DNA from: Asterias amurensis
Lineage: Eukaryota; Echinodermata; Asteroidea; Forcipulatida; Asteriidae
DNA: 64,000 nt
NCBI RefSeq assembly: GCF_032118995.1
Contig: NC_092650.1
Span: 23,570,001 to 23,634,000 of the forward strand
Direction: 5' to 3'
Positions 2,074 to 27,277 of the stretch are shown one piece after another. Under the pieces are notes generated by a model. The model saw nothing but the letters and a program-made list of their open reading frames with translations. It was not told where the DNA came from and did not search any database. Position 1 is the first letter of the stretch; each line of letters starts with the position of its first letter. The translations under genes and the position numbers were made by a program.

Positions 2074-2345
2074 TCATCCGTGGTTTATCAACACGTTCAC
2101 TGTCTCTGGCAACCCTGCCGCATTGACAGCAGTCACTGTCAGGTAGTAGTCTGTATGGGGAACCAGCGGTGATACACGCATACCAGTATCCATTGTCTCT
2201 ATCCACTGCATGACGTCACTTCCGCCAAGGACGGTACCGAGAGAGACTTCAAAGAACATTGGAGAGGAGGACATGAACATTTCGTCCCAGCTTAAATCAA
2301 CCAAGGTGCCATTGCCCTGCCATGTCGTGATTAGAAGATTCGAAC
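2074..2345 (-). pseudogene. Orphan copy of the FN3-like gene's last exon (copy A)
   Basis: Near-identical to the terminal exon of the large FN3-like gene at 29123-29394, including the splice acceptor (tattacag) and the stop after VLINHG. It encodes 90 residues with the motif YYLTVTAVNAAGL. No other exon of that gene lies near it, so it is an exon carried along by the tandem duplication. It now sits just downstream of a truncated coiled-coil gene on the same strand and probably serves as 3' untranslated sequence of that gene. It could only be translated if spliced to an unknown upstream exon. Confidence 0.75.
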
Positions 2346-2378: not shown

Positions 2379-2867
2379 TCATACGTGCGACGCCATTCGA
2401 CGTGTTTCCTCTTGCTCAGAGCTAGCTGTTTCTTGGTTGGTTGATATTGCAGCCTGCAACTCACTAACCATTCGACGTGTTTCCTCTTGCTCAGAGGTGG
2501 CTGTTTCTTGGTTGGTTGATACTGCAGCCTGCAACTCACTAACCATTCGACGTGTTTCCTCTTGCTCAGAGGTGGCCGTTTCTTGGTTGGTTGATATTGC
2601 AGCCATCGTACGTCTTGTGTCCTCCAGCTCCGATGAAACAGTTTCATTCATTAATACTTTGAGCTCTTTCACCAGGTCTTGTGTGTTTCCGAGTTCATCT
2701 TCAAGAATGACTAGGTAGTTTTCTACAATAAGCCTTAACTTGTCTACCTTACTATTTGTGTCTACATTACATGAAACCGTTCTCTGATGTCTGGAAGCTT
2801 CAACTTGTAGTTCAACTTGAGCTTTCACGATCAAAACGACCAAGAGCGAACGTGTAAACAACCCCAT
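2379..2867 (-). CDS. Truncated secreted coiled-coil protein (chimeric copy A)
   Basis: A 162-residue frame beginning [11 protein letters not shown], a hydrophobic leader, followed by one cysteine and a heptad-rich stretch, then under three units of the 25-residue coiled-coil repeat. It matches the N-terminal end of the full gene at 18526-24485 but ends after ...EETRRM with ASHV and a stop. The ASHV residues come from the 3' flank of the FN3-like last exon. The SRCR and C-terminal exons are missing. No splice donor is seen at its end; AATAAA on this strand at 1828-1833 could end the transcript. I chose the ATG at 2867 because the longer frame opens with TTG. It could be a working short secreted coiled coil or a dead by-product. 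Confidence 0.6.
   Translation of the reverse strand: MGLFTRSLLVVLIVKAQVELQVEASRHQRTVSCNVDTNSKVDKLRLIVENYLVILEDELGNTQDLVKELKVLMNETVSSELEDTRRTMAAISTNQETATSEQEETRRMVSELQAAVSTNQETATSEQEETRRMVSELQAAISTNQETASSEQEETRRMASHV
2393..2397. other. Tandem-duplication junction (CCATT microhomology)
   Basis: Left of this point the sequence follows the flank of the FN3-like last exon (GCGACGCCATT); right of it the sequence follows the coiled-coil repeat (CCATTCGACGTG). In the 23-29 kb source locus these are separate places, 29442-29446 and 24011-24015, each with CCATT. The same junction recurs at 7828-7832. Confidence 0.85.
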
Positions 2868-3061
2868 GTTGCTCAATTAACTGCAACTACAAAACACGAC
2901 TCTTTCGTTGCTGAATAGAGTAGAAATGTATAGATGAGTGAGCAACAGCCTGTCTGTAGATCATTTTACATTGAACAGATGGTACCCGCATTAAAGTTTG
3001 TTTTTCTTCCTGATACGCTGTTAGAGCAACCTGGATTCTTAGGGGAAATAGCCGTTGAACG

Positions 3062-3442
3062 TTAAAGACACTGGACACTATTGGTTATTGTCAAAGACCA
3101 GTCTTCTCACATCTCAACATATGCATAAAATGACAAACCTGTGAAAATTTGAGCTCATTACTGGTCGTCGAAGTTGCGAGATAATATGGAAGAAAAAATA
3201 CACTTGTCACACGAAGTTGTGTGCTTTCAGTTGCTTGATTTCGAGGGCCTCAAAATCTAATTCTGAGGTCTCGAAATCAAACTCGTGGAAATTTACTTTT
3301 TTTTTCTCGGAAACTACGTTACTTCAGAGGGAGCCTCTACTCACAATGTTTTATACTATCAGCTCTCCATTACTCGTTACCAGGTAAGGTTTTGTGCTAT
3401 TAATTATTTTGAGTAATTACCAATAGTGTACACTGCCTTTAA
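3062..3442. mobile_element. MITE family I (TTAA-flanked), copy in unit A
   Basis: Starts TTAAAGACACTGGACACTAT and ends near AATAGTGTACACTGCCTTTAA, so the termini are inverted repeats flanked by TTAA. The interior holds an imperfect inverted repeat around ...CGAGGGCCTCAAAATC.... No transposase. TTAA targets are typical of piggyBac- and Kolobok-type transposases; which one mobilised it is inference. Equivalent copies: 8506-8885 and 24680-25060. Confidence 0.8.
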
Positions 3443-4082
3443 GAGAGACTGACTCGGGAACTATGTAGGTAGGTCAGAGTTCAGAAAGTGTTGCGTGAAC
3501 AACTTTCAACCAGACTCGATGATTGGTTTTGGACTTGGGCCAGACCCAAAGTTGTTATAATGACGTGTTGACAACGAACCAGGTGCAACTCAGTCTGAAA
3601 ATAACCAGGAAAGATGGCTTAACAAGAGATTGATGGTTTTTACAGCTTTCACTACGTAATGTCTACAACATGTTTACTACACATCACTACACATCAATAA
3701 TATTGAATGCAACATAATATAAATAACTAGGCTTTCGAAAACACATCAACATTTTGCTAACAAATTGCAAGAGAGAATCGTGGGCTCGTTTTAGATTAAG
3801 ACTATACGAGGGTAAATCACAACAAAATAGCATTATCAGTTATACACTGCTTCTCCACACGGGAACGATAACGACAAGGACAACAACGACAATGACAACG
3901 ACAAAGGTCGTTCAAACAAGTTAATTTAGGAACGATGGAATTAATATATATTAAAAAGCCGCGGCCTCATTGTTTATTATTATTAATTACCAAGATAATA
4001 ATCGACAGGTTAGAGTGGTAGCAACTTACACTCATAACAACACTGTGATTTGAATCGACATAATTAAAATGATCCGCCAAAC

Positions 4083-4378
4083 CCCTTTTGTGACGTCAAT
4101 CGAGGCAGACTTTGCCTGCAATGCGTATAGTAAACACAAGTGCAAAGTACATGTACGTCCAAGTCGTGCGTTAGTACGTTTCAAAAAGTGTTTTTCTGCA
4201 TTCAGCAGCAATACACCTGGTCGGCATTGCCGGAAAAAAAACAAAAAAATCTTTTTTTGAAACGTACAAACTAACGACTTGGTCCGTACATGTACTTTGC
4301 AATTGTGTTTACTCTACGCATTACAGGCAAAGTCTGCCTCGATTCACGTCACGAACAGCGCCCTCTCGGGTCGGGGTC
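4083..4378. mobile_element. Foldback element with ends like the THAP transposon remnant (unit A)
   Basis: The left arm (from GAGGCAGACTTTGCCTG) is repeated inverted on the right (CAGGCAAAGTCTGCCTC), and the arms are over 100 bases long. Outer sequences TTTTGTGACGTCAATCGAGG and GTCACGAACAGCGCCCTCTC also bound the THAP-domain remnant at 13965-14500, so this looks like its non-autonomous derivative. Copies: about 9526-9820 and 25701-25996. Confidence 0.6.
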
Positions 4379-4514
4379 TACTCTTAAATTTGTAACTAAC
4401 ATAACAACTGATTTTTTTAAACTTAGTTAACTGTTCATTCACATTCCACTCATCAAAACACAAATATATTAGTGGCAAAAGCTTTATGTTGAAAAAATAC
4501 CACTTCCCGGTGAC

Positions 4515-4885
4515 TTTAAAGTCATTATACACTTTCGGAACGGAAAAAAAAAATCACGGATTTACAAGTAACGTTCAGGGTTTACGGAAGGTAATGGTAA
4601 AAGACTTATCTTGAAATATTATTCCATGAAATGCTTTACTTTTTGAGAAAACTTTAAAACAATTATCTATTCTCGATATCGAGAATTACGGATTTATAGT
4701 AAACACATGTCATGACACGGCGAAACGTGGGGAAACAAGGGTGGGTTTTCCCGTTATTTTCTCCCGACTCCGATGACCGATTGAGCCTAAATTTTCACAG
4801 GTTTGTTATTTTATATATAAGTTGTGATACACGAAGTGCTGGCCTTTGGACAATACTGTTTACCGAAAGTGTCCAATGGCTTTAA
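4515..4885. mobile_element. MITE family II (TTAA-flanked), copy in unit A
   Basis: Starts TTAAAGTCATTATACACTTT and ends GAAAGTGTCCAATGGCTTTAA; a short palindrome TCTCGATATCGAGA lies in the centre. Equivalent copies at 9959-10327 and 26134-26502. Confidence 0.75.
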
Positions 4886-4959
4886 AAGAGCCATTTTGGT
4901 TTCGACGTTTTTCAGAACTGTTATTTCCGTGGTGTTGTTACTGAAAGTTCTACTGCAGG

Positions 4960-5117
4960 AGTGCGTTTTGGCGACCCCAACCAAAAACTGTTTCTGACGT
5001 CATAACCAAAACGGTAACCGAGCTCACAACTCGGTTATCGTTCAGTCTGAACAGCAGAACCAACGACCAACAACCGAAACAGTTTTTGGTTGGGGTCGCC
5101 AAAACGCACTCGCAGGT
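4960..5117. mobile_element. Short element with ~36-bp near-perfect inverted ends, upstream of the proline-rich exon
   Basis: GCGTTTTGGCGACCCCAACC at about 4962-4981 is matched by its reverse complement near 5090-5107, and the pairing extends to about 36 bases. Inside is a second hairpin (TAACCGAG ... CTCGGTTA). It ends about 50 bases before the splice acceptor of the proline-rich exon. Copies at about 10404-10558 and 26576-26730. Confidence 0.65.
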
Positions 5118-5168
5118 TGCTCTGAACATGATTCCTTAAACTATTTTGTACTCTGTCGGTTTTCACAG

Positions 5169-5660
5169 GCACGAGGCACTTCCGTGGCACCACAGAACCT
5201 ACCAGTTATAGTTCATCCAAGCTCGGGTGTAACTATTCAAGGCAACACCATTGCTCCATCGGCGTTCTTCAGTCCTTCCCAACAAAATGTGGTCCTTAAT
5301 CCTTATAACAAACCGTATCCAGTGGCTGCTCCGATGCCAAACTATGCACCCTCCCCGCAAGTCGCTCAGGGGCCACAACCAATACAGGGTACCACAGCGT
5401 ACCCACAAGCCACTCAGGGTACCACCACAGCGTACCCACCAACCACTCAAGGTGCCTTACCCTACCCACCACCTTACCAATGTGGTCTGAATTATCGGCC
5501 ACCTAGTCCGGGTATTGCGCCACAACCTACAGTCGCCTACCCACTACCACCACCCAACCAGGGCGACACTTCTGGGACTTTCTACCCACCGCCAAGTCAC
5601 GCACTTTACCCGCCATCTGAGAAAACACCAGAGCCCCACCAAGGGGCAGCTAAACAATGA
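5169..5660 (+). CDS. Proline-rich protein, last exon (copy A)
   Basis: A 163-residue open exon with a splice acceptor (ttttcacag) just before 5169 and no in-frame ATG, so it is a downstream exon; upstream exons were not found. The protein is rich in Pro, Tyr, Gln and Thr, with spaced repeats like QGTTAYPQATQGTTTAYPPT and a PPPY motif in PYPPPYQ, a typical WW-domain ligand. There is no membrane segment in the exon. AATAAA lies ~155 bases past the stop. Such tails occur in cytoplasmic ends of small membrane adaptors (Shisa- or WBP1-like), but that is only a resemblance. It is divergent to the minus-strand coiled-coil gene, with ~2.3 kb between them. Confidence 0.6.
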   Translation, partial: ARGTSVAPQNLPVIVHPSSGVTIQGNTIAPSAFFSPSQQNVVLNPYNKPYPVAAPMPNYAPSPQVAQGPQPIQGTTAYPQATQGTTTAYPPTTQGALPYPPPYQCGLNYRPPSPGIAPQPTVAYPLPPPNQGDTSGTFYPPPSHALYPPSEKTPEPHQGAAKQ

Positions 5661-6459
5661 CAAACTGGTTTGGGTCGTCAGGTTACCAGACCCAAAAGTC
5701 CAATGAAAACGCAGCTTAAGCAGTCCATATTTATAAACAACTTACATCATACAAGACGATAAAACACACAGTGTATAGGTTGCGTAAAAAACATGAATGT
5801 TTTAAAGTTTATTAATAAAAAAAAATACTCAAAATTAAATTTGTCATTAATCAAATAAAAGTAGTAAAAAATAAATGGACGGATTTACCAAAATATTTCT
5901 TAAAAACAAATGGTGCATTCTGATTGCCTAATGCGTGTGACATCACTAAGGAGGAAAGTTTATTGAAACGAAATTCATAATAAACTTTAATTGGTACTGA
6001 GTATATACAATAAATCCGTTTTCATAAATAAGATCTGGGTATTGGTAAGAAACAAAAAAAAATAGTGAAGATCACAGATTTACATAAAACTTGCATGGTA
6101 CAATGATGATGATAGTAGAAAACATCTCTTGAAATATTTCTGTCTGATATGTCGTATTTGATGAGAAAAAAATCTAACTTCGCGTTTGGAGTTTATCGCT
6201 TTAGTGAGCGTTTTATTGATTTTTATTTTTTTATTTGGCATCGATGCAAGGCAAAATTTGTAATCGCTTTTTCACTATTCTGACCAAGATGGCCGATCGA
6301 TCTCAAACTTCTACAGGTTTGTATAGTTTATGTATAATATGGTGGATTACATAAAGTGATTACACTGCCATCAACTGTTTTGTGAGCCAAAAAAAATAAC
6401 TATGTAATGTTCCTTTAAACCATTTTCAAACGGAGCTTTATGGACTGGAAGTGGCGCAC

Positions 6460-6618
6460 CCAGGGAAAGGGTGGCCTTTTATGTTTCAAACACCACACCC
6501 AACCCTAGCCTCACCCAACCTCAGACCAAAAATGAAGGCCATAAAGAGAGACTTGGGATCACCTGTCTCCCAACCCCCCACTTGGGTTAAACACTTTTTT
6601 GGGGTGCGCCACTTTGGT
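6460..6618. mobile_element. Short TIR element GTGGCGCACCC (unit A)
   Basis: Ends read GTGGCGCACCC and its reverse complement GGGTGCGCCAC, about 150 bases apart, with no coding content. Copies at about 1016-1183 and 28065-28226. The copy in unit B is broken at 11942, the point where array homology stops. Confidence 0.55.
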
Positions 6619-7508
6619 TCTGGGTATAACGTTATACTAGTATATACACCTTTCCCATGAAATATGTAAATTACACATCGGACGTCCTATACGAATTTAC
6701 ACTATGGCAAAATGAGGGGAAATCTTGCCATCTTATGGTGCCGATGGTGGCGTGACGTGTAATATGCGTATGTCTGACTCTATGGCCCTTTTCGAAACCA
6801 CGGCTTCGGCTTTTGATTCGGCTTCTCAGGCTCCGTCCTCTCGTCTGAAGCCCTGAGCACGTACGCAAAGCGCACGCCAACTTGCCAAAAACAATCGCGG
6901 GGCAAAGCTAGCTTCGTAAAGGGCCTACGGCGTTTGCCAACAAAGACCGTCTGTACGCATGCGTGAATGTAATAAGCATATTTCACGGAAAGGCTTGATG
7001 GTTGAGACTGATATCTTACAACTATCTAAAGCTAAACACAACAAACTGCAATATAATTCCAGGTATCAAAACAAATACGGTCAATATATGATGCGAGACC
7101 TTTACATAAGTGCCGGTTTATTTGAACCAATGGAAGCCGGGGCCCCCATATCAATGTTGACCGTACACGATAAAATTTGAAATATTTCTGGAAAATTGCC
7201 CTACTATAATCTGAACGTGCATTAAAAACTATAACTTTATCAAATCACATTTAACTATAAATTTTATTTTAAAAACTAATTTGTATCCCAGCGTTCAAAA
7301 TTACTTACAAATTAAAGAATTAAGGGTTTTTTTACCAAAGGGCATAAAGTTTAGCATAGTAAAAAAATGAAAATTGTATATCCTAGCGTGCCGATTATAT
7401 GTTTTTGGTTTTTTTTTTTACCAAATGGGCATAGCTTTTAGCATCATAACATTGTGAAAATTTAACAATAATTATTCAGGTCACGCTTCATAGTGTTGGT
7501 TGATTTCA

Positions 7509-7780
7509 TCATCCGTGGTTTATCAACACGTTCACTGTCTCTGGCAACCCTGCCGCATTGACAGCAGTCACTGTCAGGTAGTAGTCTGTATGGGGAACCA
7601 GCGGTGATACACGCATACCAGTATCCATTGTCTCTATCCACTGCATGACGTCACTTCCGCCAAGGACGGTACCGAGAGAGACTTCAAAGAACATTGGAGA
7701 GGAGGACATGAACATTTCGTCCCAGCTTAAATCAACCAAGGTGCCATTGCCCTGCCATGTCGTGATTAGAAGATTCGAAC
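7509..7780 (-). pseudogene. Orphan copy of the FN3-like gene's last exon (copy B)
   Basis: Same as the copy at 2074-2345: identical predicted residues, acceptor and stop, no companion exons. It lies directly downstream of the truncated coiled-coil frame of unit B. Poly(A) signal AATAAA on this strand at 7263-7268. Confidence 0.75.
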
Positions 7781-7813
7781 CTGTAATAGTAAAAGCACAG
7801 ACCAATCTTTACT

Positions 7814-8311
7814 TCATACGTGCGACGCCATTCGACGTGTTTCCTCTTGCTCAGAGCTAGCTGTTTCTTGGTTGGTTGATATTGCAGCCTGCAACTCACT
7901 AACCATTCGACGTGTTTCCTCTTGCTCAGAGGTGGCTGTTTCTTGGTTGGTTGATACTGCAGCCTGCAACTCACTAACCATTCGACGTGTTTCCTCTTGC
8001 TCAGAGGTGGCTGTTTCTTGGTTGGTTGATATTGCAGCCATCGTACGTCTTGTGTCCTCCAGCTCCGATGAAACAGTTTCATGATTATCAGTCATTATTA
8101 CTTTGAGCTCTTTCACCTGGTCTTGTGTGTTTCTGAGTTCATCTTCAAGAATGACTAGGTAGTTTTCTACAATAAGCCTTAACTCGTCTACCTTACTATT
8201 TGTGTCTACATTACATGAAACCGTTCTCTGATGTCTGGAAGCTTCAACTTGTAGTTCAACTTGAGCTTTCACGATCAAAACGACCACGAGCGAACGTGTA
8301 AACAACCCCAT
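7814..8311 (-). CDS. Truncated secreted coiled-coil protein (chimeric copy B)
   Basis: A 165-residue frame with the same architecture and the same MASHV end as copy A at 2379-2867. It differs by a 3-residue insertion (VIMTDNHETV instead of VLMNETV) and a few substitutions; copy A shares the shorter form with the full gene. The frame is intact, so there is no sign yet of decay. Start chosen at the ATG at 8311, as in copy A. No downstream SRCR exon lies between here and the neighbouring unit. Confidence 0.6.
   Translation of the reverse strand: MGLFTRSLVVVLIVKAQVELQVEASRHQRTVSCNVDTNSKVDELRLIVENYLVILEDELRNTQDQVKELKVIMTDNHETVSSELEDTRRTMAAISTNQETATSEQEETRRMVSELQAAVSTNQETATSEQEETRRMVSELQAAISTNQETASSEQEETRRMASHV
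7828..7832. other. Second tandem-duplication junction (CCATT)
   Basis: Identical join to that at 2393-2397, so the array grew after the first junction formed, by unequal exchange or further duplication. Confidence 0.8.
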
Positions 8312-11300
8312 GTTGCTCAATTAACTGCAACTACAAAACACGACTCTTTCGTTGCTGAATAGAGTAGAAATGTATAGATGAGTGAGCAACAGCCTGTCTG
8401 TAGATCATTTTACATTGAACAGATGGTACCCGCATTAAAGTTTGTTTTTCTTCCTGATACGCTGTTAGAGCAACCTGGATTCTTAGGGGAAATAGCCGTT
8501 GAACGTTAAAGACACTGGACACTATTGGTTATTGTCAAAGACCAGTCTTCTCACATCTCAACATATGCATAAAATGACAAACCTGTGAAAATTTGAGCTC
8601 ATTACTGGTCGTCGAAGTTGCGAGATAATATGGAAGAAAAAATACACTTGTCACACGAAGTTGTGTGCTTTCAGTTGCTTGATTTCGAGGGCCTCAAAAT
8701 CTAATTCTGAGGTCTCGAAATCAAACTCGTGGAAATTTACTTTTTTTTCTCGGAAACTACGTTACTTCAGAGGGAGCCTCTACTCACAATGTTTTATACT
8801 ATCAGCTCTCCATTACTCGTTACCAGGTAAGGTTTTGTGCTATTAATTATTTTGAGTAATTACCAATAGTGTACACTGCCTTTAAGAGAGACTGACTCGG
8901 GAACTATGTAGGTAGGTCAGAGTTCAGAAAGTGTTGTGTGAACAACTTTCAACCAGACTCGATGATTGGTTTTGGACTTGGGCCAGACCCAAAGTTGTTA
9001 TAATGACGTGTTGACAACGAACCAGATGCAACTCAGTCTGAACATAACCAGGAAAGATGGCTTAACAAGAGATTGATGGTTTTTACAGCTTTCACTACGT
9101 AATGTCTACAACATGTTTACTACACATCACTACACATCAATAATATTGAATGCAACATAATATAAATAACTAGGCTTTCGAAAACACATCAACATTTTGC
9201 TAACAAATTGCAAGAGAGAATCGTGGGCTCGTTTTAGATTAAGACTATACGAGGGTAAATCACAACAAAATAGCATTATCAGTTATACACTGCTTCTCCA
9301 CACGGGAACGATAACGACAAGGACAACAACGACAATGACAACGACAAAGGTCGTTCAAACAAGTTAATTTAGGAACGATGGAATTAATATATATTAAAAA
9401 GCCGCGGCCTCATTGTTTATTATTATTAATTACCAAGATAATAATCGACAGGTTAGAGTGGTAGCAACTTACACTCATAACAACACTGTGATTTGAATCG
9501 ACATAATTAAAATGATCCGCCAAACCCCTTTTGTGACGTCAATCGAGGCAGACTTTGCCTGCAATGCGTATAGTAAACACAAGTGCAAAGTACATGTACG
9601 TCCAAGTCGTGCGTTAGTACGTTTCAAAAAGTGTTTTTCTGCATTCAGCAGCAATACACCTGGTCGGCATTGCCGGAAAAAAAACAAAAAAATTTTTTTT
9701 TGAAACGTACAAACTAACGACTTGGTCCGTACATGTACTTAGCAATTGTGTTTACTCTACGCATTACAGGCAAAGTCTGCCTCGATTCACGTCACGAACA
9801 GCGCCCTCTCGGGTCGGGGTCTACTCTTAAATTTGTAACTAACATAACAACTGATTTTTTTAAACTTAGTTAACTGTTCATTCACATTCCACTCATCAAA
9901 ACACAAATATATTAGTGGCAAAAGCTTTATGTTGAAAAAATACCACTTCCCGGTGACTTTAAAGTCATTATACACTTTCGGAACGGCAAAAAAAATCACG
10001 GATTTACAAGTAACTTTCAGGGTTTACGGAAGGTAATGGTAAAAGACTTATCTTGAAATATTATTCCATGAAATGCTTTACTTTTTGAGAAAACTTTAAA
10101 ACAATTATCAATTCTCGATATCGAGAATTACGGATTTATAGTAAACACATGTCATGACACGGCGAAACGTGGGGAAACAAGGGTGGGTTTTCCCGTTATT
10201 TTCTCCCGACTCCGATGACCGATTGAGCCTAAATTTTCACAGGTTTGTTATTTTATATATAAGTTGTGATACACGAAGTGCGGGCCTTTGGACAATACTG
10301 TTTACCGAAAGTGTCCAATGGCTTTAAAAGAGCCATTTTGGTTTCGACGTTTTTCAGAACTGTTATTTCCGTGGTGTTGTTACTGAAAGCTCTACTGCAG
10401 GAGTGCGTTTTGGCGACCCCAACCAAAAACTGTTTCTGACGTCATAACCAAAACGGTAACCGAGCTCACAACTCGGTTATCGTTCAGTCTGAACAGCAGA
10501 ACCAACGACCAACAACCGAAACAGTTTTTGGTTGGGGTCGCCAAAACGCACTCGCAGGTCGCTCTGAACATGATTCCTTAAACTATTTTGTACTCGGTCG
10601 GTTTTCACAGGCACGAGGTACTTCAGTGGCACCACAGAACCTACCAGTTATAGTTCATCCAAGCTCGGGTGTAACTATTCAAGGCAACACCATTGCTCCA
10701 TCGGCGTTCTTCAGTCCTTCCCAACAAAATGTGGTCCTTAATCCTTATAACAAACCGTATCCAGTGGCTGCTCCGATGCCAAACTATGCACCCTCCCCGC
10801 AAGTCGCTCATCAGGGGCCACAACCAATACAGGGTACCACAGCGTACCCACAAGCCACTCAGGGTACCACCACAGCGTACCCACCAACCACTCAAGGTGC
10901 CTTACCCTACCCACCACCTTACCAATGTGGTCTGAATTATCGGCCACCTAGTCCGGGTATTGTACTACAACCTACAGTCGCCTACCCACTACCACCACCC
11001 AACCAGGGTGACACTTCTGGGACTTTCTACCCACCGCCAAGTCACGCACTTTACCCGCCATCTGAGAAAACACCAGAGCCCCACCAAGGGGCAGCTAAAC
11101 AATGACAAACTGGTTTGGGTCGTCAGGTTACCAGACCCAAAAGTCCAATGAAAACGCAGCTTAAGCAGTCCATATTTATAAACAACTTAAATCATACAAG
11201 ACGATAAAACACACAGTGTATAGGTTGCGTAAAAAACATGAATGTTTTAAAGTTTATTAATAAAAAAAAAATACTCAAAATTAAATTTGTCATTAATCAA

Positions 11301-11942
11301 ATAAAAGTAGTAAAAAATAAATGGACGGATTTACCAAAATATTTTTTAAAACAAATGGTGCATTCTGATTGCCTAATGCGTGTGACATCACTAAGGAGGA
11401 AAGTTTATTGAAACGAAATTCATAATAAACTTTAATTGGTACTGAGTATATACAATAAATCCGTTTTCATAAATAAGATCTGGGTATTGGTAAGAAACAA
11501 AAAAAATAGTGAAGATCACAGATTTACATAAAACTTGCATGGTACAATGATGATGTTAGTAGAAAACGTCTCTTGAAATATTTCTGTCTGATATGTCGTA
11601 TTTGATGAGAAAAAAAATCTAACTTCGCGTTTGGAGTTTATCGCTTTAGTGAGCGTTTTATTGATTTTTATTTTTTTATTTGGCATCGATGCAAGGCAAA
11701 ATTTGTAATCGCTTTTTCACTATTCTGACCAAGATGGCCGATCGATCTCAAACTTCTACAGGTTTGTATAGTTTATGTATAATATGGTGGATTACATAAA
11801 GTGCTTACACTGCCATCAACTGTTTTGTGAGCAAAAAACAATAACTATGTAATGTTCCTTTAAACCATTTTCAAACGGAGCTTTATGGACTGGAAGTGGC
11901 GCACCCAGGGAAAGGGTGGCCTTTTATGTTTCAAACACCATT
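7833..11942. repeat. Tandem segmental duplication, unit B (cut short)
   Basis: Follows unit A base for base apart from scattered differences up to ...TTTCAAACACCA at about 11942, where the other copies continue CACCCAACCC and this one changes to TTTTCTGAAGCAGC. The last ~1.3 kb of the unit, including the FN3-like exon, is missing here. Confidence 0.85.
10611..11105 (+). CDS. Proline-rich protein, last exon (copy B)
   Basis: 164 residues, open throughout, with acceptor ttttcacag before 10611. It has one extra residue (His in QVAHQGPQ) compared with the copies ending at 5660 and 27277, and LQPTVAYP where others have APQ or VPQ. The PPPY motif is kept. All copies keep the frame, which argues for recent duplication or continued selection. 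Upstream exons not found. Confidence 0.6.
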   Translation, partial: ARGTSVAPQNLPVIVHPSSGVTIQGNTIAPSAFFSPSQQNVVLNPYNKPYPVAAPMPNYAPSPQVAHQGPQPIQGTTAYPQATQGTTTAYPPTTQGALPYPPPYQCGLNYRPPSPGIVLQPTVAYPLPPPNQGDTSGTFYPPPSHALYPPSEKTPEPHQGAAKQ

Positions 11943-12584
11943 TTCTGAAGCAGCACTTTAAAGGAAGAAGTTTGGTTTGTTATTTACACAGGGTCTTTCA
12001 TTGTTTTTACACAAGTATGTATTGCTGTTACAACTATAGATAGTTAAGGTGGTTTTTAACCCAAACTGGTATTAAATACTAATTTGTCCTTAATAAAAGA
12101 TAACATTTGTTGAAGTGAGCATCTAACATTCAAACTTGTCGTTATATTGTGTTTGTGGTGTTCTTGTTAAATTCGAAAAGGGTGTATAGTTTTTATTTTA
12201 TTCAAGTAAAACTCTCCAAATGTCAAGGCACGACCCGTTTGTAAAAAGTGTGGGTTTTGTTTAAATAATTAAAAAACAGGATTTGCTATTATTATTTTTT
12301 CACGATTCAAGCTTAGATGGGGTTGTCTTTGAAGCTATTATTTTGTTTGGTAATTTTTTAATTTTTTTTTAATGTTGCCATTTGCATTTTTTGTACTAGA
12401 ATTAGTATAAAAGTATAAACAAATTCAAAAATGAGTACACAGCCCCAGTTATTGGGTCTAGTTATGAAATACAACTATGTCATGGGACAGATAAAAAATT
12501 GATCTGCATATAGGTTGCATGTTAATGCATTTTTTGTTTTGTAGTAACTTTATATAATATGGAATGCCAAAGAGGCATTTAATA

Positions 12585-12812
12585 ATCGGTAAGGTCTTTT
12601 GCAACCGGTGATTAAATTTGTCATCGGTGATGGTCTTAGGTCATCGGTGATCAACTTCAGCAATCGGTGATGCATATATTCAAGATCGGTGATGGTCCAA
12701 GTTGCAATCGGTGGTCAACTTTAGCAATCGGTGTCTGCATATTCAAGATCGGTGATGTTCTTTCGCCATTGGTGATCAACTTTAGCAATCGGTGATGGTC
12801 TTTCGCAATCGT
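12585..12812. repeat. Minisatellite of CAATCGGTGAT type
   Basis: About ten degenerate copies of a ~20-base motif built on GCAATCGGTGATCAACTT, with variants such as AGATCGGTGATGGTC. It sits directly before a partial family IV MITE (12812 to about 12960). No coding meaning seen. Confidence 0.65.
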
Positions 12813-12960
12813 TAAAGGAACGTTACAGATTTGGTAAGAAACAAAAACTGTGAAGATCACAGATTTACATAAAATTTACACGGTGAATGATCGATGATAT
12901 CGATGATAATGGTAGAAAACATCCCTTGAGATATTACTGTAGGACGCAAGCCTCGTGCGT
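12812..12960. mobile_element. MITE family IV, partial
   Basis: TTAAAGGAACGTTACAGATT opens the element, followed by the shared GTGAAGATCACAGATTTACA segment; the right half is missing. A full-length copy is at 44679-45059. Confidence 0.6.
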
Positions 12961-12999
12961 CTTGGAACATTGGAACCCGTTAGTGAGTGCGCCATAGAT

Positions 13000-13085
13000 A
13001 TAGAATATAATACATTATCTATGGAGTGCGCGAGTTTGTTCCATAGATATAGAATTAAGTTGTTATATTCTATATCTATGGTTTG
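13000..13085. repeat. Palindromic cluster CCATAGATATAGAAT
   Basis: CCATAGATATAGAATATAAT at about 13000 is answered by ATTATCTATGG nearby and by ATATTCTATATCTATGG at about 13065, making nested hairpins. No gene. Confidence 0.45.
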
Positions 13086-13399
13086 TTCACGCGATACACG
13101 CGTGCGTAATGCGTTTTATGCGTCGTGTTTCTGATGAACTTTACGCTTGCGTATGGCGTACCACCGGCGTTGCCTGTTTATGTCAACACATTTTTTTTCA
13201 TCATTCTTTTTTCCTTGTATTTTCGTATATTAAATTTTACAGATTTATTTACCCAGCGTCTGGCTTCCTTGTAAGTTCCGGTCATAGAGCTATATATATT
13301 GACTAGAGCGCTAACACCCCGTTATACACGCACTAAGGTTTTGAAGCCGTGTGGGCGCATCTATGTATATGTACAAACCAATACAAAAGCTTGAAATAG

Positions 13400-18525: not shown

Positions 18526-18763
18526 TTACGTAAACGTTGAGCCGGTGTAACCCTTTAAGACATTAGTTGTTATAGTTTTACCGTTTGATGTACCAACATT
18601 CCAGTTGATATTTCCTTGTCTGCTGTACAGTAAGACCGGATAACTTCTGAAGGATCGTTCCCATTGGCAAATGCCATCTGAATCTAGCACCACCATCCAG
18701 CCATAGTCCAAAAGGCAGCCGTTATAGATCTTATTGATGAAGAACCGTCGACGAGACGATCCA
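18526..18763 (-). CDS. SRCR gene exon 5: end of C-terminal domain
   Basis: Enters in phase 2 after an acceptor ending AACTTTAG. It encodes [13 protein letters not shown] and [11 protein letters not shown], then CQWERS and a tail ending GSTFT-stop. The RRFFIN...GC..D.GW pattern closes a domain that I remember from many secreted invertebrate proteins, without a name I can confirm. Confidence 0.8.
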
Positions 18764-21700
18764 CTAAAGTTTGCGTGACAAGAGAAACGAGAAAGGAATT
18801 CTGATACCAACAGTAGCTTATTTATATATACCCACAATAATGGGAGAGGTTGATAGTACAAAACATTGTGAGAAACAGCTCCCTCTGAAGTGACGTAGAT
18901 TTCGAGAAAGAAGTAGTTTTCCCACGAAATTGAGTTCTCGAAATCAAGCATCAGAAAGCACACAACTTTGTGTGACAATGGTGTTTTTTCTGTCATTACT
19001 ATCTCGCAACTTCGATGACCGATTGAGCTGAAATTTTCACAGGTTTGTTATTTTATGCATATGTTGAGATACACCAACTGTGAAGACTAGTCTTTGACAA
19101 TTACAAATAGTGTACATTGTCTTTAAAAGTATAATTCAAGCAGACGTATATTTTGTTTAGCAATGAATGAGTCAGCTTTAGCTATATCAGCCCATGTCTC
19201 AGCCTGAACATCTGACGTCAAACTTCGAGGCTCGTGAATAACGCCAGTAAAAGCGTGGAGGAAGGAAGAGAAGGAGCTCAAACGAAGGGACTTCAAAAGT
19301 CGAACCCATGGTACCGCGGTCGTTTAACGACACCTCGGAATCACCCACATACCTTACACAGACAATGACCGACCTGGCGTATGTGAGTTTGCGCGTGCGC
19401 ACTGGTTCTTCACTCAACTATTGTGTCGTATGTCGTATGGATATAATACAAAAAACAACTTTTTTGAGACCTGTTAAAAATTGTGTACATACACTTGTGC
19501 TCACCAAATCGAAAAACACATTTGAACACCAACCACCCTCGTGTGCTAATACCCACAGTTTGAACCACCGCTAGTGACCGGAAAGTCACAAATGCTAAAG
19601 ACAATGCTAAAGAGAGGAGGCAAACAGATCCAGCATCTTTTCTTGCCGTAAAACTTTTTATTGAAGAAACAGAAATGCATAGTATATCCCGTCCTACTCT
19701 TTGTGTAACTTCACTCCATAACTCGTCATCTCATCTGTTTTATTTTGTTATAAACTATTATTAGCATACTCTTTCTGGTTACTTTTCGAATGTTTCAGAA
19801 CATTATTTCTCCGTCTTTTATTCAGTGTTTAAATTTTCAAGCGTTTGTTTCAGTCACAGTTCAAATTTGACTGAAACGAACGCTTGTGTGTATGCGTTCT
19901 TGTTATGGAGTTTAAAATAAAACAATGTATGCGACGTGCCGAGCTGACCACCATCATGTGTACGTACCTACTGGCCCAAATATCCCCAAAGATAGAGAAG
20001 TAGTTCATGTTTGTCGTTGTTGTCAGGTCACTCCATGGAGAGGATACAAGGCGCTCCTTGGCGAACCAGCTCGTAATGTCAGAGTCCACTCCATTGAATA
20101 CCAATTCAACTTTGACCCCAGTCTGGTCGTACAAGGACAACTTGACCTGGACAGAGATTCAAGTTAAACAGGATTGTATCATCGAAAGACAAAAAAACAA
20201 AAAACATGTTGCGTAAATCGCACTGATCCACGCACACTTCTAACAAACAGGCTCAAAAGATTATAAGCCCATTAGGAAATGCATTGAGCTAGTTATTGTC
20301 ATATGAACATTCGTCCTGCACTACGAAAAGGTCGTTAGATACCCCCAGGGGAATCCGCCTGGTCCTCTCAAAATTCGAAACCTCAGCTGAGGTATCGAAT
20401 TCAAGCAGCCGAAAGCACACAACTTGTGATGCAAGGGTGTTTTTTCTTCCATTATTCTCTCGCAACTTCGACGACAAATTGAGTTTAAATATTAATACAG
20501 ATTTGTAATTTTATGCATTATGTTGAGAAACACCAAGTGTGAGAAGACAGGTCTTTGACAATTACCAAAGGTGTCCAGTGCCTTTAAGCTTACGTCGCTG
20601 CATGTTTATAAATTAACTCATAATTGTATCAAATAAAATCACTGTTTCTGAAAAGCAAGTACATGTCTGTTTTCGGATACAGACAGGGGACCAGTCTATT
20701 CCCTCACCTGCTTGATGTTCAACTGTCCATTTTTCCAAGAATTGTACAATATGTTGTTCCGATAGTTCCCGCTGTTCTCTGAGCCGCACTCCAAGATTGA
20801 GTCAGTCCACAGGTCATACATATTAAATCCCGTCCCAGCAACCCCTTTGAAGACCAACTGCCATCCACACTCTGAGTAGAAAAGGTGATGTTATTAAAAA
20901 CAATCATAAATTAACGAACAAGAAAGGCTTTTTGTTATTTAAAAAATAAATAATAATCCCGCATTCCGCAAAAGGTCGATTGGGGTGTAGTTCATGGCTC
21001 GACTTGTAAGCAAAATATCGGCACTCGCGGAAATTCTGCGCTTACGCCAAGCATATTTCAGTTAGCAAGGAATTTTGGCTTGTGAGCGTGTGACTCCATG
21101 TTGTGATAGGTATTCTACACTTATACAGCATTTAAACCACTTCTCCTAGCTTTATAGTACCTCTGTGCAGTATATATTTCTGATGTTTTTGGACTATCTG
21201 GCTCAAAATATATGTTACATTACATTACAAAACGATTTGGACTTTTCCTTTTTTTATTGTTTGTTACTTTCAACCACACACCCTGTATACATACCAGTGC
21301 AGATTACACCAGCATCTTCACTGTGACCACAGTTGTCAATTGTGCTATATGAGCATTGGGCAATGTTGGTCTCTGTTCCGGTACAAGCAACATCATCCAT
21401 AACTATGTCTCCACTACCCTGACCAAAGTAGGCTGACGATTTGGCTGATAGTGCACTTGAATAGCCAAGTTGTGTACACACCACTGTAGCGTCATTGATG
21501 CCCCATTGGTCATCACACACTGTTCCCCATGCACCGTTTACATACACCTCAACACGGCCTTCTGAGCTAGAGCTTCCACCAACAAGTCGCACAGAAAACG
21601 AACCTGTTCAGTTAATGAGTTACAAAATAACAATAACTGATGTTTTCAAACGTTCATTTGAAAAGAGCACAATGATAAGTTGGTGCTTCCTCCAACAAGT

Positions 21701-24485
21701 CTTATTGAGAACTCATCTACACACCGTATGCAAACAAAATAACACACATTCCGTTATCAGGAGCTACAATGTTCAGTTTACCTTGAATATGTAACGAAGG
21801 GAGCATGATGCAACACATTCTAAAAGGATCAGGGTCTTTTTTGAAATACAAAACACAATTTCCACAGGGTTTTTGAAGACAATGATATAAGAAGGCTTCA
21901 CCTAAAATAAAAAACTATTACTTGCTGAAGTGCTGTAGTTTTTGAGAATGAGTAAATGCAATGGAGAGCTGTTGATAGTATAAAACATAATTTTGAGGTC
22001 TCAAAATCAAGCATCTGAAAACACACAACTTTGTGTGACACATGTGTTTTTTCTTCCATTATTATCTCACAACTTTGATGACCAATTGACCTCAAACTTT
22101 CACAGGTTTGTTATTGTATGCATATGTTGAGATACAGCAAGTGAGGAGACTGGTCTTTAGTGATCAGAGTCTTTAAGAGCTGTATCTTGCTTCTCTCTAA
22201 AAGCTTAATGTTTATAATATGTAAAAACAATTCTGTACAGCGTTTTGAGATTTTCTTTTTGCAAGAAGCTTTTCAAAAAATGTTTATTATTACTATTATA
22301 ATTGTGAATTGATTTTTATATTGGTAATGAGCAATGGAGAGCTGTTGATGGTATAAAACAGTGTAAGAATTGAAACGGCTCCCTCTGAAGTATCGTAGTT
22401 TTCGAGAAAGAAGTATTTTTCAACTTAAATGATTGAATTGAATTGAATTGGAGACTTCAGCTGAGGTCTCGAAATCAGGCGTCTGAAAGCACACAACTTG
22501 TGCGACAAGGGTGTTTTTTCTTTCCTTATTCTCTTGCAACTTCTACGACTATTTGACTCCCTTATTTCACAGGTTTGTTATTCTATGCATTATTTTTTTA
22601 CTGTCGAGTTACACCAAGTGAAAACACTGGTCTTTGACAATTACTGAAGGCGTCCAGTGCCTTTAAACATACAAACTGTCTTAATGTAAAAGAGTGAAAA
22701 AACACTCCTTTTGTCCGCCATACCACTCTTGCAAACAGCCATATGACGAAAAACTCTTTTTAGAGTGAAAGACGGGTACTTTCAACTCAATTTAGAGTGA
22801 GGTTTGTTCCACGTTCACTCAAAAAGAGTAACACAGATTGACTTTCACTCTCAAAAGAGCGGAAGTGATACCACTCGGAGTGAAAACACCCTTGTCGTCG
22901 CACTTTTGTGTACGAGTAAATTTGAACGCATGTTTATAATGGACAGTTTAAGGTGTAATGCTTACGATCTAGTGTGGGGGCGAGTACGTTTCGAATGGTG
23001 ATTAAATAGACCCCTTGCATAATGTCGCCACTGAGGTCCATAAAGGGCCATCTTTGGCGGAGAGTAATGCGCAGCGCGTCACCGCGCGTTGATAGATTGA
23101 CATTAAAGGTGACCGCCAATGCTAGGGGTCTTTGGTGTACAACAGTCTCCCCTCAACAAAGTCTTGGATATTTAAGAGGTAGTGTTGTCTGCTTGTGTCT
23201 ATTTCTACCTCCATGGTTTAACCACGATTGTGAGCAAACAAAACCTACCATGGATCTTCGTCAACCTAGATACTGATTCCTGGAGCTCTTCCACCTGACG
23301 CCCAATGACTCCCATTTCACGTCTTGTGTCTTCTAACTGAAGTGCTGTGTTTCTTAGTGCGACAGTTACCTTTTGTTGGTTGGTCGAAACTGCAGTCTGC
23401 AACTCACTAACCATTCGACGTGTTTCCTCTTGCTCAGAGGTGGCTGTTTCTTGGTTGGTTGATACTGCACCCTGCAACTCACTAACCATTCGACGTGTTT
23501 CCTCTTGCTCAGAGGTGGCTGTTTCTTGGTTGGTTGATACTGCGACCTGTAACTCACTAACCATTCGACGTGTTTTCTTTTGCGCAGAGGTGGCTGTTTC
23601 TTGGTTGGTTGATATTGCAGTCTGCAACTCACTAACCATTCGACGTGTTTCCTCTTGCTCAGAGGTGGCTGTTTCTTGGTTGGTTGATACTGCACCCTGC
23701 AACTCACTAACCATTCGACGTGTTTCCTCTTGCTCAGAGGTGGCTGTTTCTTGGTTGGTTGATACTGCGACCTGTAACTCACTAACCATTCGACGTGTTT
23801 TCTTTTGCTCAGAGGTGGCTGTTTCTTGGTTGGTTGATATTGCAGTCTGCAACTCACTAACCATTCGACGTGTTTCCTCTTGCTCAGAGGTGGCTGTTTC
23901 TTGGTTGGTTGATACTGCACCCTGCAACTCACTAACCATTCGACGTGTTTCCTCTTGCTCAAAGGTGGCTGTTTCTTGGTGTGTCGCTACTGCACCCTGC
24001 AACTCACTAACCATTCGACGTGTTTCCTCTTGCTCAGAGCTAGCTGTTTCTTGGTTGGTTGATATTGCAGCCTGCAACTCACTAACCATTCGACGTGTTT
24101 CCTCTTGCTCAGAGGTGGCTGTTTCTTGGTTGGTTGATACTGCAGCCTGCAACTCACTAACCATTCGACGTGTTTCCTCTTGCTCAGAGGTGGCTGTTTC
24201 TTGGTTGGTTGATATTGCAGCCATCGTACGTCTTGTGTCCTCCAGCTCCGATGAAACAGTTTCATTCATTAATACTTTAAGCTCTTTCACCAGGTCTTGT
24301 GTGTTTCCGAGTTCATCTTCAAGAATGACTAGGTAGTTTTCTACAATAAGCCTTAACTCGTCTACCTTACTATTTGTGTCTACATTACATGAAACCGTTC
24401 TCTGATGTCTGGAAGCTTCAACTTGTAGTTCAACTTGAGACTTCACGATCAAAACGACCAAGAGCGAACGTGTAAACAACCCCAT
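18526..24485 (-). CDS. Secreted coiled-coil/SRCR protein, five exons (708 aa)
   Basis: Exons: 24485-23249, 21603-21295, 20871-20708, 20146-19968, 18763-18526. All have AG acceptors and GT donors, and phases agree (1,1,0,2), giving 709 codons with one stop. Layout: hydrophobic leader (1-24), one Cys near 31, coiled coil (about 35-405) mostly of eleven 25-residue units, one SRCR domain (about 415-515), then a ~190-residue C-terminal domain. Coiled coil plus terminal SRCR recalls class A scavenger receptors such as MSR1, but here the leader is short, no long membrane anchor is evident, and an extra domain follows. Such proteins usually bind microbes or debris outside the cell; that role is inferred. 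Poly(A) signal at 18367-18372. The gene diverges from the proline-rich exon at 26786. Confidence 0.85.
18830..19126. mobile_element. MITE family I, in intron 4 of the SRCR gene
   Basis: Contains AACAGCTCCCTCTGAAGTGA and ends AGTGTACATTGTCTTTAA; the left end is worn. Confidence 0.65.
19968..20146 (-). CDS. SRCR gene exon 4: middle of C-terminal domain
   Basis: Phase 0 in, phase 2 out (donor GTACGT). Encodes [20 protein letters not shown] and [11 protein letters not shown] ... NYFSIFGD. The paired VxLxLY and LVFNG..S....WF patterns are typical of the same unnamed domain. Confidence 0.8.
20365..20586. mobile_element. MITE family I, right half
   Basis: AGCAGCCGAAAGCACACAAC through GTGTCCAGTGCCTTTAA, in intron 3 of the SRCR gene. 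Confidence 0.6.
20708..20871 (-). CDS. SRCR gene exon 3: start of C-terminal domain
   Basis: Phase 1 in, 0 out (donor GTGAGG). Encodes [15 protein letters not shown] and [10 protein letters not shown], then [32 protein letters not shown] is the opening signature of the domain completed by exons 4 and 5. Confidence 0.8.
21295..21603 (-). CDS. SRCR gene exon 2: complete SRCR domain
   Basis: Symmetric phase-1 exon of 103 codons. Encodes [67 protein letters not shown]. All core SRCR landmarks are present. The six cysteines match the group A set rather than the eight of group B, although group A domains in vertebrates are usually split over two exons. Confidence 0.95.
21925..22175. mobile_element. 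MITE family I, partial
   Basis: Segments TATAAAACATAATTTTGAGG and AACTTTGTGTGACACATGTG, ending in TTAA at 22172. Lies in intron 1 of the SRCR gene. Confidence 0.6.
22316..22666. mobile_element. MITE family I
   Basis: TTGGTAATGAGCAATGGAGA to GCGTCCAGTGCCTTTAA, in intron 1 of the SRCR gene. The following 22680-22900 is rich in AGAGTGAAA and its complement and forms weak hairpins, possibly another short element. Confidence 0.6.
23249..24485 (-). CDS. SRCR gene exon 1: leader and coiled-coil array
   Basis: 412 codons plus one base. Leader [19 protein letters not shown], then a heptad region, then the 25-residue repeat (unit pattern [20 protein letters not shown] followed by EETRR), and an exit segment [14 protein letters not shown] before the donor at 23249 (G|GTAGGT). 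25 residues is three heptads plus four, so the coil must include a regular stutter or hendecad. The open frame beyond the donor (to 23205) reads into the intron. I start at 24485 because the upstream in-frame codons begin with TTG, not ATG. Confidence 0.85.
23400..24221 (-). repeat. 75-bp coding tandem repeat (11 units) with a 225-bp higher-order period
   Basis: Each 75-base unit encodes 25 residues. Units alternate by the residues after [39 protein letters not shown]. The run GAV-TAI-VAV is repeated, with TAI units carrying EQKKTRR or AQKKTRR, so blocks of three units have been copied together. Confidence 0.9.
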
Positions 24486-24679
24486 GTTGCTCAATTAACT
24501 GCAACTACAAAACACGACTCTTTCGTTGCTGAATAGAGTAGAAATGTATAGATGAGTGAGCAACAGCCTGTCTGTAGATCATTTTACATTGAACAGATGG
24601 TACCCGCATTAAAGTTTGTATTTCTTCCTGATACGCTGTTAGAGCAACCTGGATTCTTAGGGGAAATAGCCGTTGAACG

Positions 24680-25060
24680 TTAAAGACACTGGACACTATT
24701 GGTTATTGTCAAAGACCAGTCTTCTCACATCTCAACATATGCATAAAATGACAAACCTGTGAAAATTTGAGCTCATTACTGGTCGTCGAAGTTGCGAGAT
24801 AATATGGAAGAAAAAATACACTTGTCACACGAAGTTGTGTGCTTTCAGTTGCTTGATTTCGAGGGCCTCAAAATCTAATTCTGAGGTCTCGAAATCAAAC
24901 TCGTGGAAATTTACTTTTTTTTTCTCGGAAACTACGTTACTTCAGAGGGAGCCTCTACTCACAATGTTTTATACTATCAGCTCTCCATTACTCGTTACCA
25001 GGTAAGGTTTTGTGCTATTAATTATTTTGAGTAATTACCAATAGTGTACACTGCCTTTAA
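24680..25060. mobile_element. MITE family I, copy in source locus
   Basis: Same insertion as 3062-3442 and 8506-8885, so it predates the duplication. Confidence 0.8.
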
Positions 25061-26133
25061 GAGAGACTGACTCGGGAACTATGTAGGTAGGTCAGAGTTC
25101 AGAAAGTGTTGTGTGAACAACTTTCAACCAGACTCGATGATTGGTTTTGGACTTGGGCCAGACCCAAAGTTGTTATAATGACGTGTTGACAACGAACCAG
25201 GTGCAACTCAGTCTGAAAATAACCAGGAAAGATGGCTTAACAAGAGATTGATGGTTTTTACAGCTTTCACTACGTAATGTCTACAACATGTTTACTACAC
25301 ATCACTACACATCAATAATATTGAATGCAACATAATATAAATAACTAGGCTTTCGAAAACACATCAACATTTTGCTAACAAATTGCAAGAGAGAATCGTG
25401 GGCTCGTTTTAGATTAAGACTATACGAGGGTAAATCACAACAAAATAGCATTATCAGTTATACACTGCTTCTCCACACGGGAACGATAACGACAAGGACA
25501 ACAACGACAATGACAACGACAAAGGTCGTTCAAACAAGTTAATTTAGGAACGATGGAATTAATATATATTAAAAAGCCGCGGCCTCATTGTTTATTATTA
25601 TTAATTACCAAGATAATAATCGACAGGTTAGAGTGGTAGCAACTTACACTCATAACAACACTGTGATTTGAATCGACATAATTAAAATGATCCGCCAAAC
25701 CCCTTTTGTGACGTCAATCGAGGCAGACTTTGCCTGCAATGCGTATAGTAAACACAAGTGCAAAGTACATGTACGTCCAAGTCGTGCGTTAGTACGTTTC
25801 AAAAAGTGTTTTTCTGCATTCAGCAGCAATACACCTGGTCGGCATTGCCGGAAAAAAAACAAAAAAATCTTTTTTTGAAACGTACAAACTAACGACTTGG
25901 TCCGTACATGTACTTCGCAATTGTGTTTACTCTACGCATTACAGGCAAAGTCTGCCTCGATTCACGTCACGAACAGCGCCCTCTCGGGTCGGGGTCTACT
26001 CTAAAATTTGTAACTAACATAACAACTGATTTTTTTAAACTTAGTTAACTGTTCATTCACATTCCACTCATCAAAACACAAATATATTAGTGGCAAAAGC
26101 TTTATGTTGAAAAAATACCACTTCCCGGTGACT

Positions 26134-26502
26134 TTAAAGTCATTATACACTTTCGGAACGGAAAAAAAAATCACGGATTTACAAGTAACGTTCAGGGTTT
26201 ACGGAAGGTAATGGTAAAAGACTTATCTTGAAATATTATTCCATGAAATGCTTTACTTTTTGAGAAAACTTTAAAACAATTATCAATTCTCGATATCGAG
26301 AATTACGGATTTATAGTAAACACATGTCATGACACGGCGAAACGTGGGGAAACAAGGGTGGGTTTTCCCGTTATTTTCTCCCGACTCCGATGACCGATTG
26401 AGCCTAAATTTTCACAGGTTTGTTATTTTATATATAAGTTGTGATACACGAAGTGCTGGCCTTTGGACAATACTGTTTACCGAAAGTGTCCAATGGCTTT
26501 AA
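26134..26502. mobile_element. MITE family II, copy in source locus
   Basis: Same insertion as 4515-4885 and 9959-10327. Confidence 0.75.
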
Positions 26503-26785
26503 AAGAGCCATTTTGGTTTCGACGTTTTTCAGAACTGTTATTTCCGTGGTGTTGTTACTGAAAGTTCTACTGCAGGAGTGCGTTTTGGCGACCCCAACCA
26601 AAAACTGTTTCTGACGTCATAACCAAAACGGTAACCGAGCTCACAACTCGGTTATCGTTCAGTCTGAACAGCAGAACCAACGACCAACAACCGAAACAGT
26701 TTTTGGTTGGGGTCGCCAAAACGCACTCGCAGGTCGCTCTGAACATGATTCCTTAAACTATTTTGTACTCGGTCGGTTTTCACAG

Positions 26786-27277
26786 GCACGAGGTACTTCA
26801 GTGGCACCACAGAACCTACCAGTTATAGTTCATCCAAGCTCGGGTGTAACTATTCAAGGCAACACCATTGCTCCATCGGCGTTCTTCAGTCCTTCCCAAC
26901 AAAATGTGGTCCTTAATCCTTATAACAAACCGTATCCAGTGGCTGCTCCGATGCCAAACTATGCACCCTCCCCGCAAGTCGCTCAGGGGCCACAACCAAT
27001 ACAGGGTACCACAGCGTACCCACAAGCCACTCAGGGTACCACCACAGCGTACCCACCAACCACTCAAGATGCCTTACCCTACCCACCACCTTACCAAGGT
27101 TGTGTGAATTATCGGCCACCTAGTCCGGGTATTGTACCACAACCTACAGTAGCCTACCCACTACATCCACCCAACCAGGGTGACACTTCTGGGACTTTCT
27201 ACCCACCGCCAAGTCACGCACTTTACCCGCCATCTGAGAAAACACCAGAGCCCCACCAAGGGGCAGCTAAACAATGA
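26786..27277 (+). CDS. Proline-rich protein, last exon (copy C, source locus)
   Basis: 163 residues, acceptor ttttcacag before 26786, AATAAA about 155 bases past the stop. Differs from copy A in a few places (QDALPYPPPYQGCVNY, YPLHPP) but keeps PYPPPYQ. If the gene has upstream exons they should lie between 24486 and 26785, since the duplicated unit starts at the coiled-coil gene; I could not identify one. Alternatively the unit captured only the 3' end and all copies are orphan exons. Confidence 0.6.
   Translation, partial: ARGTSVAPQNLPVIVHPSSGVTIQGNTIAPSAFFSPSQQNVVLNPYNKPYPVAAPMPNYAPSPQVAQGPQPIQGTTAYPQATQGTTTAYPPTTQDALPYPPPYQGCVNYRPPSPGIVPQPTVAYPLHPPNQGDTSGTFYPPPSHALYPPSEKTPEPHQGAAKQ

Follow-up and report, generated by a model that had tools for sequence, protein, structure and literature searches.

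The window analysed here, a 64,000-nucleotide stretch of Asterias amurensis DNA, holds two predicted minus-strand genes whose parts recur in a pair of gene fusions. One of them, called the full gene below, fits a five-exon model with GT-AG introns and would encode a 709-residue protein made up of a leader, a long coil, an SRCR domain and an unnamed C-terminal domain. Its coil exon 1 (23249–24485, minus strand) carries about 11 coil repeats and ends at a predicted phase-1 donor, ATG/GTAGGT (slashes mark splice borders); on the same strand lie the SRCR exon (21295–21603; PF00530, E 3.3e-33), two predicted exons of the C-terminal domain (20708–20871 and 19968–20146) and the predicted last exon of the 709-aa model (18526–18763). 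The C-terminal domain has a lone Pfam match, PF24907, at E 0.014 and under its cut-off, and no relative under E 0.4 among solved structures. Hydrophobic periodicity of the coil peaks at 3.6 among the five periods tried, from which we draw no inference. The other gene, an intact FN3 gene, ends in an exon (29123–29394, minus strand) that matches PF00041 at E 2e-4 and 22 bits, under the curated cut-off of 25.

Self-alignment delimits a 5.44-kb segment, 24011–29446, that is the source of three further tandem units at the left of the window. Unit S0 (1–2397, starting 917 bases left of the window) corresponds to 26134–29446 of the source and holds the FN3 3' end together with what we infer to be the tail exon of an SRCR receptor; S1 (2393–7832) is a complete copy of 24011–29446, and S2 (7828–11940) is a truncated copy of 24011–28110. 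The S0/S1 and S1/S2 junctions, at 2393–2397 and 7828–7832, are identical and consist of the 5-base microhomology CCATT, as both a sequence check and the self-alignment confirm. In the predicted gene models, with both genes on the minus strand, the breakpoints fall at 24011 inside coil exon 1 and at 29446 inside the last FN3 intron; the proposal of a sequence-only reading of this DNA, that a tandem duplication had fused the coil gene's 5' part with the FN3 gene's 3' end, thus agrees with the self-alignment and the models. The FN3 end of the first chimera comes from the third unit, S0.

Each chimera retains the start codon, the leader and a polyadenylation signal, as that reading had also noted, and three of the roughly 11 coil repeats. 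Chimeric frame 1 (2379–2867, minus strand, 162 aa) runs from the start codon through the leader and three 25-residue coil repeats to the junction and a stop after MASHV; frame 2 (7814–8311, minus strand, 165 aa) has the same junction and the same end, and in both the M of MASHV is the final coil residue. AATAAA lies downstream at 1828–1833 (chimera 1, minus strand) and 7263–7268 (chimera 2), with its equivalent at 28876–28881 in the FN3 gene. By self-alignment, the coil start in the chimeras is accompanied by 3.6 kb or more of DNA copied from upstream of it, and a homologous coil exon 1 with leader is present in the window copies as it is in the coil–fibrinogen family described below. As to signs of a decayed pseudogene, the chimeras show none in their frames, which are open, or in their upstream DNA, which is retained. 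The fusion is real in the assembly and had been correctly located.

When up to 3 mismatches are tolerated, a 24-base sequence spanning the junction has exactly two matches in the 491.5-Mb genome, and its reversed form, used as a control, has none. Among 50,000 random breakpoint pairs drawn from the same two regions, 0.5% have a microhomology of 5 bases or more. Since the two chimeras share a base-for-base identical breakpoint and a single 5-base microhomology, they represent one fusion event in two copies; the suggestion that such a gene had been made at least twice is therefore not borne out.

The position of the fusion point bears directly on what the chimeras might encode. It lies inside the last intron of the FN3 gene, leaving 47–52 bases of intron before the last exon, whose phase-1 acceptor, TTACAG/GTTCG, is retained. 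The FN3 last exon of S0 (2074–2345, minus strand) would be exon 2 of chimera 1, and that of S1 (7509–7780, minus strand) exon 2 of chimera 2. The stop after MASHV is thus present in both frames as had been described, but it is encoded by an intron remnant and is the outcome of an unspliced transcript alone. Relative to this stop, the acceptor lies 33 bases after it, and two candidate donors lie 83 and 158 bases before it. In chimera 1 the candidate phase-1 donor TTA/GTGAGT (2459–2464, minus strand) has the G of its GT at 2464, with a second at 2539; the equivalent phase-1 GTGAGT donors of chimera 2 (minus strand) have their G at 7899 and 7974. The predicted introns, of 119 or 194 bases, would both yield spliced products in frame, giving coil–FN3 proteins of 224 or 199 residues from chimera 1 and 227 or 202 residues from chimera 2, whereas use of a weaker donor four bases earlier, ATG/GTTAGT, would shift the frame (chimera 1 then giving 137 or 112 residues). 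The FN3 part of the spliced chimera matches PF00041 at E 7e-4 and 20.1 bits, the curated cut-off being 25. The natural product of the chimera may therefore be read, on the predicted splice sites, as a two-domain coil–FN3 protein and not a truncated coil, an outcome absent from the sequence-only reading.

These candidate donors arise from the coil repeat itself. MVSEL in the coil repeats is encoded as ATGGTTAGTGAGTTG, which contains a phase-1 GTGAGT, and a phase-1 donor is found in nearly every 75-base repeat: the full coil exon holds 11 GTRAGT sites, all 11 in phase 1, and each chimera holds two GTGAGT sites (counts of a longer exact motif are 9, 2 and 2 for the full coil exon and the two chimeras). 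TTA/GTGAGT outscores 81% of the 21 SRCR-exon donors from this genome that make up the scoring matrix and, of all 8117 GT sites in the window, ranks among the best 1.3%; these 21 come from a rule that took the first phase-1 GT, applied to 60 ends of SRCR domains, so that some are surely wrong, and they include window sequence. The retained FN3 acceptor stands at the 39th percentile of 28, the same as the SRCR acceptor of the full gene. The in-repeat donors are internal to the exon and their exon side, TTA, is weak; the full gene apparently bypasses them for the higher-scoring ATG/GTAGGT. Fibrinogen, SRCR and FN3 acceptors are all predicted to be in phase 1, matching the coil donor.

The full gene, which had been regarded simply as the full-length coiled-coil/SRCR parent, does contain coil and SRCR exons but appears to be itself a fusion with a cassette from a coil–fibrinogen gene. 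Other loci of the coil exon family occur elsewhere on C3 and on C10 and C20; those at C3:2.5–4.1 Mb, C10 and C20 adjoin fibrinogen-domain exons, and the number of coil repeats differs widely between family loci. We entered 23 coil places, comprising the 3 window copies and 20 others, after merging rows that repeated a locus and leaving out the short matches at C10:13118695 (34 bases) and C10:5668645 (76 bases). Eighteen of the 20 non-window loci (all but L024 and L025) have a fibrinogen exon 1.2–8.9 kb downstream on the same strand, within the 10 kb considered, as against none of the three window copies. Only the full gene in the window, among the coil places counted, has this SRCR exon and a C-terminal exon downstream; the 10 kb downstream of each of the coil exons in S1 and S2 hold no SRCR exon, and among the PF00530 matches from the 150 of 454 candidates scored none lies within 10 kb of a coil place outside the window. 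Co-location here means proximity and strand, not a gene model, and was counted with DNA queries, of which the one for this SRCR exon would miss very dissimilar SRCR exons; the PF00147 scan scored 150 of 700 candidates and the fibrinogen exon search 40 of 51. From 30 SRCR rows, the 17 on C3 were entered, the other 13 being on C9, C11 and C13, contigs without coil places. At the one locus read in sequence, L005 with L057, three frames lie after the coil exon and between them account for the fibrinogen C-terminal domain (PF00147, E 1.2e-14, 8.3e-33 and 1.4e-20).

We compared nine of the 19 non-window coil loci fetched with the window. Upstream, homology among the matches listed stops at 25271–25272 in seven of the nine, the exceptions being L004 and L016, whose listed matches reach 24625 and 24457. 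Downstream, the border falls at 22320–22321 in four of the nine (L005 through L057, L008, L013 and L014), while the other five end earlier, among the matches listed or with the fetched piece, and are thus silent on this border. Past both borders family members remain alike, at seven loci upstream and at L057, L013 and L014 downstream, where L057 and L014 are alike over 721 bases at 92% and L013 shares just 89 bases. These borders, combined with family likeness beyond them, indicate that 22321–25272 (minus strand) is a cassette moved from a coil–fibrinogen gene into the SRCR locus, comprising about 787 bases of upstream DNA, coil exon 1 and the first 0.93 kb of intron 1. The SRCR exon of the window is nearest to plus-strand SRCR exons 29–34 kb left of the window (90–92%). 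The full gene thus reads as a mosaic of at least two sources, and probably of three.

How old are the fusions? Units S1 and S2 differ by 0.76% from each other and by 0.88% each from the source, with private differences spread near-evenly (S2 17, S1 12, source 18 over 4098 columns), while S0 differs from S1, S2 and the source by 1.58–1.93%. A 348-base stretch including the FN3 last exon is exactly the same in S0 and S1 and nearly identical in the source. The surrounding tract, 28761–29446, which was chosen after window-by-window divergence had been inspected, has 1 difference in 685 between S0 and S1 (51 in 2612 elsewhere; Fisher p 1e-4), 2 in 685 between S0 and the source (55 in 2611 elsewhere; p 4e-4) and 3 in 685 between S1 and the source (45 in 4750 elsewhere; p 0.27). 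It spans the FN3 last exon and the 3' region, and farther left S0 differs by up to 3–4%, making it a mosaic. Constraint on the FN3 exon was considered as a reading of this tract and set aside, because S0 is a mosaic and gene conversion or later exchange explains the tract equally well.

Over the 158 shared codons (108 synonymous and 366 nonsynonymous sites), synonymous to nonsynonymous substitutions number 3:2 between copy 1 and the source, 2:6 between copy 2 and the source, and 1:6 between the copies – counts so few that selection and neutrality are indistinguishable from them. Both chimeric frames are intact, as had been pointed out in their favour, but this was to be expected: in simulations, a frame of this length survives in 95, 85, 78 and 67% of cases when 1, 3, 5 and 8 substitutions are placed at random, so that open frames are uninformative at this age. 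Two changes, E43K in copy 1 and L9V in copy 2, introduce residues that are seen at these sites in none of 10 aligned family sequences. Most likely the copies are young, perhaps polymorphic, and under no detectable selection yet. An excerpt of a sea star genome report gives a heterozygosity of 0.96% by k-mers (PMC11090083); the divergence of the units (0.76–0.88%) is near this figure, and it is therefore possible that the array is polymorphic or haplotype-specific.

On balance we think it probable that a recent tandem duplication, seeded by microhomology, produced a fusion that was then copied, and that the cassette's promoter drives a spliced, secreted coil–FN3 protein. A single duplication of 24011–29446 would have brought the coil 5' cassette (upstream DNA, start codon, leader and three coil repeats) to about 50 bases from the FN3 last exon, on its upstream side, and copying of the unit would have yielded two identical fusions. 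Transcription would start from the cassette's own promoter, and the FN3 acceptor would pair mainly with the in-repeat phase-1 GTGAGT donor to give a secreted coil–FN3 protein of 224 or 227 residues, the unspliced coil of 162 or 165 residues being a minor form. In an earlier step the cassette would have moved from the coil–fibrinogen family into the SRCR locus, so that the fusion would be the second time that this 5' module took part in exon shuffling. Two successive rounds would then be visible in one genome, in a probable immune-type gene family, with donor family, moved cassette, breakpoints and phases all readable and the second round at under 1% divergence; the predicted 119- or 194-base coil–FN3 intron would decide whether the fusion was born truncated or two-domain. 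A broader and distinctly speculative extension, which we think unlikely on present indications, is that the 5' cassette is a repeatedly reused front end, heading fibrinogen, SRCR-plus-C-terminal and FN3 tails in one genome. If this were so, a break almost anywhere in the coil array could, through the in-repeat donors, be joined in frame to any phase-1 extracellular exon, and the array would serve as a ready-made landing strip from which new recognition proteins, secreted and oligomeric, could arise.

The main rival, a serious possibility that nevertheless falls short of probable, accepts the same structure and sees the fused copies as passengers, silent or with a degraded product, drifting after neutral duplication; the two readings are not exclusive, the structural part being common to both. 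The low age of the copies, the substitution counts too few to tell from neutrality, the unmatched E43K and L9V, and the truncation of S2 amid rearranged surroundings would all suit silent copies. Such silence sits less well with the upstream DNA of the coil gene, intact in both copies, or with Drosophila yakuba, where, in the excerpts of one study, fusions of like geometry often change expression, 24 of 76 chimeric genes formed by tandem duplication being upregulated (PMC5460883). By analogy with that count, expression of the sea-star chimeras is plausible. At a lower probability, and improbable in our judgement, is the effect originally envisaged, in which the unspliced chimera gives a secreted coil of 162 or 165 residues, with MASHV at its end, and this coil poisons or modulates the oligomers that the full protein forms. 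The open frame, the retained leader and start, and the downstream AATAAA are all compatible with it, and an unspliced message, with no exon junction after its stop, would not be expected to undergo decay; yet the usable-looking acceptor lying 33 bases past the stop, and the good donors that precede the stop by 83 and 158 bases, weigh against this, the open frames are uninformative, and the helicity and assembly of the short coil are putative, as read from its sequence repeats.

That the units are an assembly artefact, made by misjoining of haplotypes or repeats, we regard as very improbable. Their divergence is at the level of heterozygosity, as such an error might give, but the window and the fetched flanks (30 kb left and 10 kb right) are free of N, S1, S2 and the source each carry private substitutions, with a 9-base difference in the S2 coil exon, and S0 and S2 end at different points. 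Nor would haplotype misjoining alone create a repeated 5-base microhomology joint.

Exon shuffling by tandem duplication is a known kind of event; what this locus adds is that the donor gene is already a fusion with a coil–fibrinogen cassette, and that the product may be two-domain. As in the excerpts on D. yakuba (PMC5460883), the duplicated stretch begins in one gene and ends in another, so that its junction is a 5'–3' fusion, and the geometry is the same as in the legend of Fig. 2 of that study, with the intervening DNA copied. Unlike the cases in those excerpts, there are here three extra units, S0 and S2 are incomplete, and the 5' donor was already chimeric. The window genes share with the coil–fibrinogen family (Fibrinogen_C, PF00147) the coil exon together with about 787 bases before it and 0.93 kb of intron 1, at roughly 87–97% identity, which varies with the locus and the stretch compared, but differ in that the full gene has SRCR and another domain and the tandem copies an FN3 exon. 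Its one SRCR exon likens the full gene to the invertebrate SRCR superfamily expansions described in excerpts of PMC10855680, whereas in chimeras 1 and 2 the coil is not followed by any such exon. Among the open-access papers listed, judged by their titles and the starts of their abstracts, none deals with such a coil cassette or with a starfish chimeric gene of this kind.

The neighbourhood has been rearranged several times, as is suggested by the joining of the S2 end to 1.24 kb that resembles DNA farther to the left. This piece (11941–13183) is 93% similar to C3:23550683, 18–19 kb left of the window. A simple model of copies lying next to their parent was rejected, as S2 breaks off at the equivalent of 28110 and this piece comes next. 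The middle of 11941–13183 contains a ATCGGTGATG-type tandem array with many dispersed relatives.

Left of the window, on the plus strand, SRCR exons are followed by a membrane-spanning exon (L009:8676–8797) and then by the proline-rich frame of S0, which would be the tail exon of this left-hand SRCR membrane receptor. Copies of the tail exon lie on the plus strand at 26786–27277 in the source, 5169–5660 in S1 and 10611–11105 in S2, the one in S0 presumably being native; those in S1, S2 and the source are apparently orphaned behind the upstream DNA of the coil gene. The source copy diverges most from the others in 27011–27260.

Nearby, an inverted copy (L058) running from C3:23516923 to 23523000 or beyond matches window positions 20992–14780 at 92–97% in pieces and has C-terminal exons resembling those of the full gene. 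In the 3.9 kb that precede this copy there is no match of at least 120 bases to the window or its flanks, and hence no copy of the SRCR exon of the full gene. At C3:23514206 (L059) there is a different open frame, whose start resembles, by eye, a leader and a short coil.

Within the window, a 28-base unit is present six times, each time perfectly, at 30002–30168. Another repeat, dispersed and about 380 bases long, occurs at 3061–3443, 8505–8886, 24679–25061, 32476–32868, 36948–37345, 60535–60911 and 61386–61773. Each of the three coil starts has one copy about 200 bases upstream of it, and a piece related to this repeat lies at the 22321 border of the cassette.
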